From Diphasiastrum complanatum (lineage: Eukaryota; Streptophyta; Lycopodiopsida; Lycopodiales; Lycopodiaceae): 64,000 nucleotides of DNA. The notes under the pieces were generated by a model. That model did no database searches. It saw nothing but the letters and a program-made list of their open reading frames with translations, and had not been told where the DNA came from. The DNA lies in contig CM055097.1 of NCBI GenBank assembly GCA_029204225.1, positions 51,588,557-51,652,556 on the forward strand. Direction: 5' to 3'. A program made the translations under genes and the position numbers. This document shows, one piece after another, positions 4,407 to 12,352 of the stretch. Numbering within the stretch: the first letter of the stretch is position 1; the number at the start of each line of letters is the position of its first letter.

Positions 4407-4443
4407 CATTAGGGCCCTTTTTGGACTCAAAAAGGGCCTCTTC
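4407..4443 (+). repeat. Left terminal inverted repeat (37 bp)
   Basis: It starts CATTAGGGCCC and ends GGGCCTCTTC, and is identical to the reverse complement of 12316-12352 over all 37 bases. Within it GGCCCTTTTT and AAAAAGGGCC form a 10-bp stem around a 6-base loop, so each end is itself a hairpin. Just inside, 4445-4465 resembles the complement of 12272-12297. Confidence 0.9.
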
Positions 4444-4731
4444 ACTAATTATAATTAGTGTTAATGACGACGCGTGTCCCAATAAAATATTGACAACTGA
4501 GAGGGAATGGTCCATATGACATGGCAAATTCAATGGTGCAGATTAAATCAAGTGTGGGCCCACAAAGTACACCTCTAACATTAACCCTAGATAAAGCAAT
4601 AACTATGCCTACAAGTTACCATCAACTAGCCTGTCTATCTACTAGCAGCCTTATCCTAAGAGAGCATAGTCCTTATTTCAAATTTTGAATGTTCACAAGC
4701 TTGTATCTCTCATCTCTCTCTCATTTTGTAG

Positions 4732-4837
4732 TCTCTCTCTCTCTCTCTCTCTCTCTCTCTCTCTCTCTCTCTCTCTCTCTCTCTCTCTCTCTCTCTCTCT
4801 CTCTCTCTCTCTCTCTCTCTCTCTCTCTCTCTCTCTC
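4732..4837 (+). repeat. (TC)n microsatellite, about 53 units
   Basis: An uninterrupted TC/CT run of 106 bases lies about 105 bases before the ATG at 4943. It could be a pyrimidine patch in the promoter or 5' UTR of the next gene. The long serine/leucine reading frames across it are artefacts of the repeat. Confidence 0.97.
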
Positions 4838-4942
4838 ATTCTGTATACTCCACATATATTCTATTTTTTTTATTTTGGTTCACCTTATCTGAAGATCTAC
4901 ACACTATTTCGCATATCCTACATTATCATTACATCATCCATT

Positions 4943-5499
4943 ATGGTCTCTACTCAATCAAGGAAGCCCAAGAATCAACTAGCTTCCATTGTTATATTTG
5001 TCACATGGGATTCAAAGGAAATGGAGCATGAAGGAGATTTAATAAGGTGTAAGCTCTCTTGTGAAATAATGACCATAAGGTATCACATTTCACGTCAAAC
5101 ATGCTCCTTAAGTTTCATTTATAGGCGATATAAGTTTGGTCATGGTCAATGGAACCCTCTGGACGCGGAGACGAATCAGCAAGAAGTGGAGATATCCATA
5201 CATTTGCCCCATGATGAAATACGAGAAATTCATATAAATAAGGAGTGCAGCCTAGAAGATCTTCGACATATGCTTGGATTGACTTTTGTTGATGTGCCAG
5301 TAGATTTTGTCTTCACTCGTAATGGACAAAATGTGAGTCCCTAATTTCCATCAGATTCCTGAATTTTAAATAGTAATGTTGAATAAATATAGGATTATTA
5401 ACTTTGTGTCTGGTTTTGCAGATACAGAGACGAGCCGAAAAAGATCATGAATGTGTTTCATTTTTACAAAAAGGGACATTAGGAGTCCAATGGGAATAA
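4943..5499 (+). CDS. Small two-exon gene of unknown function inside the TIR element
   Basis: Exon 1 is 4943-5332 (130 codons from ATG) and ends in AAT followed by GTGAGT. The intron 5333-5421 ends in TTTTGCAG. Exon 2 is 5422-5499 and ends in TAA. The junction is in phase 0, giving about 155 residues. I do not recognise the family. The N-terminus is basic and short (MVSTQSRKPKNQL). The C-terminal third (SLEDLRHMLGL, then DFVFTRNGQNIQRRAE) has the alternating hydrophobic pattern and NG turn seen in some ubiquitin-like or beta-grasp domains, but that is only a guess from pattern. There is no signal peptide or membrane segment. The reading frame and splice sites are intact, unlike its neighbours. 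It is the leftmost gene of the element and is followed about 350 bp later by the histone-like gene on the same strand. I chose this ATG because upstream codons come from the microsatellite. Confidence 0.6.
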
Positions 5500-5734
5500 A
5501 GGATTTAATCTAATGAAAAATAGAAAACACAATTAGTTGGTTGTGTTTTGACTCTATTCTACTATATTTGGTTACATTTTGACGTTACTTTTGTGTTGTC
5601 ACATTTTATATGCCTGTTACTACATTTGTGGATGTCCAAGGATTTTTACTCATGAGCCTAGACAAGAACATACTATATTTGAAAAAGAGGCCAAAACTTT
5701 TATAGGGGCACTTACTAGAAATAGAACCCTTCAC

Positions 5735-5742
5735 TATATAAG
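5735..5742 (+). promoter_or_regulatory. TATA box of the histone H3-like gene
   Basis: The sequence cactatataaggg contains TATATAAG, 122 bases before the ATG at 5857. The context and spacing closely resemble the TATA box of the leftward gene at 9112-9105. Confidence 0.6.
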
Positions 5743-8980: not shown

Positions 8981-9104
8981 TGTTATGCAAGTAAGAACAC
9001 TAACTGACCAGCAAACTAGTAGTCTAATTGAACAAGACAAGCTAAATTACGAGGAAACAAATTTCGACAAAGCAAGAAGTGACAACAAAATGAAAACCCC
9101 CACT

Positions 9105-9112
9105 CTTATATA
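9105..9112 (-). promoter_or_regulatory. TATA box of the leftward unknown gene
   Basis: On the minus strand the sequence reads cctctatataagagtg, with TATATAAG 125 bases before the ATG at 8980. The core CTATATAAG followed by a GTG-containing tail matches the promoter at 5735. Confidence 0.6.
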
Positions 9113-9245
9113 GAGGGACGTGTATCCAAAAATAGATATTATCATAAAACCAAATAAAATAATTTCTATTTATAACAACAATCCAATTCGGCAGTAATAT
9201 TTATCACAAAGGAATATTCGAATTACAATTCAACATAAATTGTTT

Positions 9246-11934
9246 CTATTCCATCTCATCAGTTTTCGTAGTTTCTATAGCGCTGTTTTCCAAAACATTG
9301 GATGTTGGTGTCCTCGGCATCCATCTCTTTTCATCTCGGACTCTAGACATCCTCCATTCTTGATGCCTTGTTCTAGCATTAGAGGATTGCCATGCTGTCT
9401 TTCTGACTGAATTTGAATTGGAGATCATTGAACACAACTCTTCAGTTCTTGTGTTTTGAAAGTGTCCTCGACCCAAAACTCCTCTGTAAAACCATTGGAA
9501 TATCTCAACCAATGCATTGCTAAGACCCTTTCCTCCGCCATGCCGTGAATTTTTGAAATACGCAGTCTTTGCCTTGTAATGACTCTTTTCCATGCCTTGC
9601 GTATTCCAAATAGCTAATGATCCATAGGTTTTCATAAACCAAGGTCCATGAGCATAGAAGATGTGCTGTTCATAGAAAATTTGTATTAGTTTAAATCTTT
9701 ACAAATACATAAATATGAAAGTAAAAAATATGAGACACACATACCATATAGTGAGTTATGTGTGTTTCTCCCCATGCATCGATCATCAATTCAGTAAATG
9801 TTTTGACTTCTCTTGCGTATCTATCCAAATCTTCATCTCTCACAATCTTTTTGTTGATAGTTTGTGACAAGGCATCAAATGCTTGCCAAACCTTAGCACG
9901 TGTACTTGCCATGCGAGGATCTGAGCCAATATTTGTTGTGCATGGACATATTTTTCTCCAGTACTCCCATTCAACATTGCTTTCACGTGCAGTATGATTT
10001 GACAATAGGTGTCTCGCTTTCGCACCACCCATTGAAACTTTTGCTGGAACATCTTGCGTTTTTCCACTCATCTCAACGTCTTTGATAAGACTCACGTGGC
10101 CCCCGTGCAATCCCATATCGGATAAAATTATCTCTAGATTTCTAATGCTAACATCTGCTCTTGATTTGGGCTGCATGTTCCATGCGTAACAACAATGCAA
10201 AAATAATAATTTGTTCAGTATTCGTAATTCACCATGCATTGTGCAAAAATGGACTCTTTCGAGAGGAATGTTCAACACAAGACTCCAAGCTTTGTCTAGA
10301 TTGTTCCTATTTGGTGCAAGATGTTGGTTGCAATTCAAAATACTTTTGTTCCGCCCAGATTCAAACATACAATATATACAAAAAAATTTTGCATTTGCAC
10401 CGAGACCACAACCGTACATGCATGTCAAAGTCTTCAAATCAGCAGCTAGGTGCCATTCTACAGCAAAGCTTTCTCCTTCAACATTGAGCAATTTGCCTTC
10501 ATTTTGTGCATGTATTATCTTAGATATACTACATTTTTCAAATAGCCACTCCAGTACGTCGTGAGGCTCCTTAGGAACTTCAAATGCAGCTATCCACCAT
10601 ATGTGATTTTCGGATTACACGCTAAATTCTTTACAATAACTTCTGCCAAACTGTTGCAATTCACGATTCATCAAGGTGATTGTGACACGTTCAAGTTTAC
10701 GCCCTTTTACGATTTCCGCTTTGTCCAACTTAATAACAAATATAACTTTACCTCCACAATCTGTAAAACAAAAATTTCATTACTAAAACATATTAGTTGA
10801 AGAAAAGCATACAATTGAAAACCGAAATCCACAATAAATGTTCTTACCATTTGTTCTAACTTCGTAATGTCGGATCATCATCGCTTGGACCTTTTCCAGA
10901 TCTAAGAATATATTATTGCCTTGATGATAACGAAAACATGTCGGAGGTCATTTCTTCTTATTGGTTACTATAAAAGAATCCTCAATATGTTGAAACTCTC
11001 CTAATTCAGAGAGCAATATCGAATTACATTCTCGTTTGGCGGATTTGACAAGTTTATAAGTAGGTATTATTTGATGGCATTTTAACCCATTTTTGTCAGA
11101 GCTTTTCATATACTTCATCAAAGCTCTATACCCCTTGCGACTCACACCTCCTTGGTCACATGCGTACACCATCTCTTTAACATTTGGATTTGGCTTGAAC
11201 TTGTCGACTAGCATTTTTACAATTCTCAAGCGAATTGAATCACTTGTTTCATCTTCCACAATCTTAATCAAATCTTTACCCTTCAAAAAATGTTTCATAT
11301 ATTTTTCGGCAATAAAATCTTTTCCAACCGTCTTTTTCAAGAACTCTTTTGTGTCCCTCATACGTCTTTTACTGGCACCACCACCTGGTGCCAAAGCTTC
11401 TAGTTTGTGTCTCTTAGTGTTTTCATTTTCTGCTTGTTGATCCATCGAGACTCTACGCTTTCGTTGTAAGCCAGATATTGTCCTTTGAAATATACTAATT
11501 GAAGATTGCAATTCTTCAATTTTTGCGACAGAACTGGCAAGCTCTATTTTCAAACCATTTATCTCCTGCTCCAATTTCATATTTATTCCATGCAATGACT
11601 TTAAATTGTCATTTCATACTCAATATATGAATGTTTGCCATATTTGCCAATGTCTCAGCTTGAATTCTTCGAGAATCCATTGCTTGACAATAGCCAAGCA
11701 GTCCATTCCGACCATCCCCAATGAACCTTAACAAACTATGTACATCAAAAAATTTACGAGGAGCATCTACCAGTGGATTATGAGGGTATAAATCACCTCT
11801 TACCCATAGGTCAATATGTTTTTTTCCTTCTAATCTCCAACAATGTCATACGGATTTAAGTTAACACCCCATGCAGCTTTGGTGGTCGCATAATCCTTCT
11901 CTAACTTCACGTGTAAGTGATACTTGGTTGTCAT
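9246..11934 (-). CDS. Transposase-like protein of an unclassified family (frameshifted)
   Basis: The likely start is ATG at 11934 (MTTKYHLHVKLEKDYATTKA). Two single-base shifts (about 11840 and 11615) lead into a coiled coil (INMKLEQEINGLKIELASS) and a basic stretch (KRRMRDTKEFLKKTVG). A GT-AG intron at 10847-10761 keeps phase (RTN-D-CGGKV). An in-frame stop (TAA) follows YCKEFSV. The core includes EWHLAADLKTLTCMYGCGLG, then FFCIYC, and HFCTMHGELRILNKLLF. A second GT-AG intron (9744-9666) joins ITHYM to HIFYAHGPWFMKTYGS in phase 0, followed by IWNTQGMEKSHYKAKTAYF and FKNSRHGGGKG. It ends at TAG, 9246. An Asp in a D-L-K motif, a C-x2-C pair, and the H-G-E and QGMEKSHY blocks resemble the core of large eukaryotic transposases, but I cannot place it in a named superfamily. 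Its position next to the right inverted repeat fits a transposase. Confidence 0.55.
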
Positions 11935-12315
11935 CTTGAAGATGTCGAATTTCCCAAAAGAATCTATGTAGAACATTACAATATACCTTAATCAAATGGT
12001 GTCAAAGTTCAATGTGAACTAACCATGATATAAGCTTTATTAGGCATATACTAGTTTCCATCCCTAGGGTCCTATTGTAGTTAGGACAATGAAAGGTCGT
12101 CCTATACTAACCCTACTCTAGTTGTAATTTGTAACTTACCTATTAGTTGCCTAGCCTATTATAGTCTATGCAAATAACCTACAATAGTCTATGAAAATGA
12201 GACCTACATTTAGGCCTTAACTCTTGCTCACCTTGTATGGTAACCCAAGATAAAGGTGCCATGTAGGATTGATTAGCACTAAATTAATTATGATTAGAAA
12301 ACTTCTTTAGGCAAG

Positions 12316-12352
12316 GAAGAGGCCCTTTTTGAGTCCAAAAAGGGCCCTAATG
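12316..12352 (-). repeat. Right terminal inverted repeat (37 bp)
   Basis: Perfect inverted partner of 4407-4443, with the same internal 10-bp hairpin. The flanking sequence outside it (cttgaac) does not obviously repeat the left flank (ccctta). Confidence 0.9.

Follow-up and report, generated by a model that had tools for sequence, protein, structure and literature searches.

Can a DNA transposon of a plant carry a histone and keep it as a gene of its own? This question is raised by a unit at positions 4407 to 12352 of the 64,000-nucleotide stretch of Diphasiastrum complanatum DNA analyzed here (the window). A preliminary description had proposed that the unit is a DNA transposon carrying four densely packed, converging genes, two per strand, among them a histone H3-like gene and a putative transposase gene. 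Our data confirmed that it is a damaged copy belonging to a high-copy transposon family of its plant genome, bounded by terminal inverted repeats (TIRs), and we found the four genes arranged as proposed. With respect to the histone, the element appears to have retained the H3-like gene as its own by selection.

The two arms of the unit form a perfect 37-nt inverted repeat (Table 1) beginning with CATTA, and every TIR arm folds as DNA into a hairpin with an 11-bp stem (z-score of -5.7), which fits the imperfect inner extension of the repeat that had been noticed earlier. In the genome from which the window comes (1.74 Gb in 5,176 contigs), the 37-mer has 1,609 matches with up to two mismatches, 822 forward and 787 reverse, whereas a reversed-pattern control gave none in either orientation. 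Likewise, all 40 scored matches to the first 194 bp of the unit, from 1,309 candidates, showed 98% to 100% identity. The 37-mer therefore marks the ends of a repeat family with many copies.

We picked 20 copies (L009 to L028) by the left end only, without requiring the right end, which is also visible in 10 of them (L009, L010, L012, L013, L015, L016, L017, L018, L021, and L023); among the remaining 10, some may be cut by the fetched stretch or by N. The 20 copies are not all independent, as flanks are common to L010 and L012, to L013 and L014, and to L015 and L021, and L009 has the flanks of the window copy. Alignment over more than 80% of a segment was obtained for transposase exon 2 in 11 copies, for the H3 core in 8, and for the H3 open reading frame (ORF) and the third gene in 7 each. 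Outside this sample, L033 measures 8.9 kb end to end, with a small indel in its left end, and L034 (1,140 bp) and L035 (1,024 bp) are short, hairpin-like elements with the same ends. Copies with shared ends, varying deletions, and empty sites support the transposon interpretation, and L013, L023, and L033 carry the corresponding gene regions flanked by these ends. The notion that the repeats are an unrelated small hairpin to which the genes are not linked does not agree with these data, as the 1-kb elements exist beside full copies and the H3-like and transposase-like genes are linked at many places. The window copy itself is broken, as had been noted: its H3 frame stops 37 codons after the MARTKQTAR start, and transposase exon 2 contains one TAA. 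L009, located on an unplaced contig, has the same insertion site as the window copy with different internal losses, and it perhaps represents the other haplotype.

Empty sites, which the preliminary description had suggested as a check together with target-site duplications (TSDs), were found for two insertions. L034 lies in a copia-type element, and its joined flanks match 40 of 40 scored places over 217 to 220 of 220 bases at 92% to 96% identity, with two offsetting 3-base gaps that lie away from the join and are masked by the equal lengths; in the four places inspected at the base level, the junction is exactly the left flank plus the right flank. L033 lies in an element that, judged by eye, resembles the gypsy type; all 40 scored places align across the join with 82% to 88% identity and net gaps, and in the one inspected at the base level the junction is free of gaps, which occur at other positions. 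No duplication was found at either site, nor one of common length in 11 flank pairs. We rejected an AAT repeat at the L034 site as a TSD because AAT is present in the empty sites too. On the basis of these two insertions, the family inserts precisely and with zero TSD.

The element was compared with known superfamilies. TIRs of CACTA/EnSpm elements start with CACTA, Mutator elements (MULEs) combine a 9-bp TSD with a MULE domain, and Helitrons lack TIRs and encode a Rep/helicase protein. CACTA/EnSpm does not agree with the CATTA start and the absence of a TSD, Mutator does not agree with zero TSD and the absence of a MULE domain match in Pfam, and Helitron does not agree with the presence of TIRs and the absence of a Rep/helicase domain in the scanned proteins. 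In the available text of PMC4482050, CACTA/EnSpm (CMC) elements have TSDs of 2 to 4 bp and hAT elements have TSDs of 5 to 8 bp; the latter do not agree with zero TSD here, and the three exons of the right-end gene have no hAT match in Pfam up to an E value of 10. That text also describes Spy, of the PHIS superfamily, as a cut-and-paste element that leaves no TSD, prefers AAATTT, and encodes a PIF-like DDE transposase. Spy and the family studied here are alike in lacking a TSD but differ in that AAA/TTT occurs at 0 of the 11 insertion sites here and no transposase match was obtained in Pfam up to an E value of 10.

A transposase had been suspected near the right end, and a spliced, conserved gene is indeed located there, although it belongs to no recognized transposase family. 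In L033, it consists of three exons with GT-AG introns and open frames of approximately 403, 361, and 150 codons, and exon 2 has 113 scored matches in the genome, many of them without stops. In Pfam, none of its three exons matched a transposase family at E values of up to 10, an NCBIfam scan of seven element proteins gave weak unrelated matches only, and the PDB yielded no match to exon 2 and three weak ones, coiled-coil or unrelated, to exon 1. The AlphaFold model of exon 2 is poor (pLDDT of 36.6), and the candidate DDE residues were seen by eye only. We call the gene transposase-like because of its position, its conservation, and this candidate triad, and it most likely encodes the transposase. 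Alternatively, the unit could be a non-DDE mobile element, for example of a circular-intermediate or recombinase type, or derived from a virus, in which case the right-end gene would not be a DDE transposase. Zero TSD, the hairpin ends, and the lack of an informative Pfam, PDB, or NCBIfam match would be in keeping with such an origin; TIRs with internal-deletion and MITE-like (miniature inverted-repeat transposable element) derivatives, which we take to be typical of DDE elements, argue against it, as does the finding that one scan of IMG/VR contigs with two peptide patterns revealed no relatives of exon 2. We consider this origin quite improbable. As for the left plus-strand gene, no Pfam family scored above the cutoff with its longer relatives in L031 and L033, nor did any NCBIfam family with that in L031.

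The H3 fold and the ARTKQTAR start that had been claimed for the histone gene are both present, the latter at window position 5872, but they are not continuous in the window copy. In L037, one continuous ORF extends to the H3 C terminus (416 amino acids from the first ATG and 412 from MARTKQTAR) and matches Pfam PF00125 with an E value of 6.7e-29; between tail and fold, it has approximately 310 residues that include arginine-serine (RS) repeats, a stretch rich in Gln, and a long run of prolines. L036 contains a similar ORF with the tail AWTKQTAR. For the window copy (6445-7068), the best 60 matches listed from the PDB carry the name of H3 or of a form of H3, with one named "histone domain-containing." A genome search with the H3-like sequence gave 153 matches, 150 of them scored, from 9,405 candidates. 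The host has at least 13 full-length H3 genes, at 97% to 99% identity, whereas the mean identity of the element core to canonical H3 is 0.55 in one subfamily (A) and 0.54 in the other (B); the element gene is therefore not a fresh copy. Centromeric H3 (CenH3) was considered as a source and rejected, the nearest PDB matches being canonical H3 forms; plant CenH3 itself was not compared directly. Two further H3-like loci were noted. L045 (C8:18046705-18047028) is divergent, has one extra loop 1 residue, and is not of the transposon type; it is a candidate for the centromeric H3 of this genome, with canonical H3 as its best PDB matches. L042 (C7:61150850-61151330) starts with MARTKQIAR, has one stop in the core, and is equaled in score by C7:61421937.

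The two subfamilies were separated by a search with the H3 core of L055, in which at least 52 matches showed 76% to 100% identity (B) and the others showed 64% to 71% (A). In A, an H3 match lies no farther than 9 kb from at least 55 of the 113 exon 2 matches, in converging orientation for 53 and in another for 2, with 0.18 expected by chance; this count used 152 H3 places and is a lower bound. Exon 2 of L058 is 75% identical to that of A, and 20 places are at least 82% identical to L058; of these, 5 lie no farther than 9 kb from a B-type H3, each in converging orientation, but two of the five (on C9 and C12) are identically spaced and, by-eye comparison suggests, perhaps one region assembled twice. 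In L059, the one B copy whose N terminus was read, the protein begins directly at MARTKQTAR. The tail helix, the RS region, the Q-rich region, and a PILND.FF motif are common to L059 and A, and the histone chimera therefore most likely arose once. ARTKQTAR itself is identical in both, with 4 of the 8 codons silently different. Of the canonical H3 tail, this motif alone is shared: K9 is replaced by D in A and by R in one B copy, and the canonical K9, K14, and K27 tail was not found, although the H3 fold is present by profile.

For the analysis of selection, we extracted by pattern 22 ungapped cores of 86 codons, 16 from A (including L009) and 6 from B; the pattern demanded an ungapped match of 84 to 88 residues and a set C terminus, and pairwise rates were calculated without L009 (15 A copies). 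Within A, the ratio of mean nonsynonymous (dN) to mean synonymous (dS) divergence is 0.37 (median of pairs, 0.51), and within B it is 0.40. Between the subfamilies, dN is 0.23 and dS is saturated in 90 of 90 pairs, codon positions 1, 2, and 3 differing by 0.274, 0.133, and 0.647, respectively; maximum likelihood applied to four A-B pairs gave a dN of 0.18 to 0.20 and a dS of 3.8 to 22. In exon 2, three A copies compared with L058 gave a dN of 0.149, a dS of 0.877, and a dN/dS ratio of 0.17. The H3 core is invariant at 34 of 86 positions, a few C-terminal ones being forced by the pattern, and C110, H113, K115, R116, T118, D123, L126, and R129 are kept in all 22 cores; we take these residues to be contacts to the partner H3 (the H3-H3' interface) and to DNA near the C terminus. 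Saturated silent sites combined with a dN of about 0.2 between the subfamilies demonstrate, at the codon level, strong purifying selection on the histone core.

These data bear directly on the main rival, passive transduplication, wherein a host H3 gene was captured by accident and copied along without benefit to the element. Such capture has been published for fungal hAT elements, as far as the available parts of PMC6710886 and PMC3538342 report, and the gene is lost or broken in many copies here. Nevertheless, the codon constraint between A and B, the common chimeric tail and linker, the conserved linkage, and a core that has just about 55% identity to canonical H3 argue against it. Passive transduplication is thus weakened by the selection data, and we regard it as unlikely. 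Slightly better placed, though still rather doubtful, is the possibility that the H3 fold belongs to an accessory factor of transposition, in which it mediates dimerization or DNA binding and never becomes nucleosomal, the tail just recruiting H3K4 readers. The long RS-, Gln-, and Pro-rich linker in L037 and the replacement of R63 by P in 21 of 22 cores would suit such a factor; the retention of the presumed interface and DNA-contact residues, with no indel over the 86 residues of the extracted cores, would not. This possibility is compatible with the docking form of the explanation that we prefer.

That explanation, taken whole and including its mechanism, is a TSD-less element with a selected H3 that acts on chromatin, and we consider it as having an even chance of being correct. 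In this scenario, the element H3 would pair with host H4 and would either be placed on element DNA or bring the transposition complex to chromatin via K4-reading factors. K4 is kept and could be methylated, while K9 and the remaining silencing-marked tail are gone; as a result, the element could evade silencing or gain access to open chromatin. Most likely, the element benefits from an action of the histone protein on chromatin, and we infer anti-silencing or chromatin targeting. A more specific version, in which the family would be a new TSD-less superfamily encoding a nucleosomal H3 variant of its own that can be methylated at K4 and not at K9 or K27 and that marks element DNA as active or guides insertion, is tentative and rather unlikely to hold in full. 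As for the element part of the explanation, namely, the family, its precise TSD-less insertion, and an element-borne histone accompanied by a transposase-like gene, we are highly confident.

Several observations weigh against the preferred explanation. The H3 core is found in only 8 and most of the H3 ORF in only 7 of the 20 left-end copies, and the tail is changed in four A copies (L011, L018, L033, and L036). The right-end gene matches no known transposase, its name resting on the position, conservation, and by-eye triad mentioned above. The AlphaFold model of the H3 domain has a pLDDT of 65, and Foldseek gave no match at an E value of 0.001 or below and no histone among the best 50 of 79 matches; despite this unhelpful model, the match to H3 at the sequence level stands. 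Copies dropped by the core pattern include L013, L015, L018, L021, L023, L044, L047, and L057, which are damaged or odd, and conservation is therefore overstated. Finally, dS between A and B is saturated in H3, compared with 0.88 in exon 2. Modules may therefore have been swapped or acquired independently, and some of the selection could be older than the element, which would permit selection before a passive capture; besides such exchange or independent capture, a difference in rate may account for the gap.

Coordinates of the element and of the other coding regions of the window are given in Table 1. Within the unit, an inverted repeat with 33-nt arms, 85% paired and 1 nt apart (7333-7399), separates the H3-like gene from its converging neighbor and may represent a small insertion or a terminator common to both genes, and a long CT microsatellite (4735-4836) lies ahead of the left gene.

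Table 1. Positions of the element, its genes, and other coding regions in the window
Feature	Position	Strand	Remarks
Left terminal inverted repeat (CATTAGGGCC...)	4407..4443	+	Own hairpin inside; present in 20/20 copies sampled by left end (L009-L028)
Gene without assigned function	4943..5499	+	Lacks 791 bp at 4993/4994 compared with L033
Histone H3-like gene, broken in window copy	5869..7071	+	Complete ORF in L037
H3 fold domain	6757..7068	+	Pfam Histone, E 2.1e-29 (window 6445-7068); PDB H3.1, E 1.4e-28
Gene without assigned function, probably two or more exons	7530..8980 (limits approximate)	-	No family above cutoff (Pfam, NCBIfam)
Transposase-like gene, exon 3	9246..9665	-	Possible catalytic E in GMEKSHY, by eye
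Transposase-like gene, exon 2 and little intron sequence	9694..10776	-	One TAA in window copy
Transposase-like gene, exon 1, likely coiled coil	10848..11934	-	Frame broken in window copy
Right terminal inverted repeat	12316..12352	-	Inside fetched stretch in 10/20 copies sampled by left end
Fructose-1,6-bisphosphatase C-terminal coding region	141-1016		Pfam
Reverse transcriptase with RNase H	46169-47848		Pfam
Integrase with GAG-pre-integrase	49277-49888		Pfam
Copia-type reverse transcriptase (RVT_2)	50260-52020		Pfam

The preliminary description held that no plant DNA transposon with a histone had been described, and we found none in the literature surveyed, which lies largely outside subscription papers; nevertheless, H3-like genes inside hAT elements have already been published for the fungi Pyrenophora tritici-repentis (PMC3538342) and Pseudocercospora fijiensis and its relatives (PMC6710886). 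According to the available parts of these papers, the fungal elements share with ours a DNA transposon nature, an H3-like gene between TIRs, and tens to hundreds of copies, and the P. tritici-repentis element has a full transposase and an ORF of unknown function beside the H3-like gene, likewise comparable to the situation here. Expressed sequence tags exist for the P. tritici-repentis gene, for which its authors consider possible drift (PMC3538342), and the P. fijiensis elements have an 8-bp TSD and copies inactivated by RIP (PMC6710886). Unlike these, the element studied here resides in a plant, leaves no TSD, has an unclassified transposase-like gene and a long RS-, Gln-, and Pro-rich linker, and comprises subfamilies under purifying selection. 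The idea of a transposon-borne H3 is thus not new, while that literature yielded no case combining a plant host, insertion without a TSD, and retention by selection.

Other transposons carry effectors of a related kind. VANC of the Arabidopsis VANDAL elements is an anti-silencing protein that causes loss of DNA methylation (PMC5735166); as a transposon-encoded counter to silencing, it resembles what we propose for the element H3, and the available part of that paper does not present it as a histone. Fungal DNA transposons that encode TET/JBP dioxygenases, thought to help against silencing, likewise have an epigenetic effector aboard, but, as far as the available text goes, it is an enzyme acting on 5-methylcytosine and not a histone (PMC12730594).

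The published transposon histones that we found come from a small number of fungi, in which H3 genes were captured. With a chimeric H3 kept by selection through a subfamily split, the concept of private histone variants directed against silencing, or used for site choice, becomes testable. Our analysis also brings to attention an unclassified transposase-like protein associated with precise, TSD-less insertion. If the more specific version of the proposed explanation is true, this family would be an example of a transposon bearing its own chromatin state.

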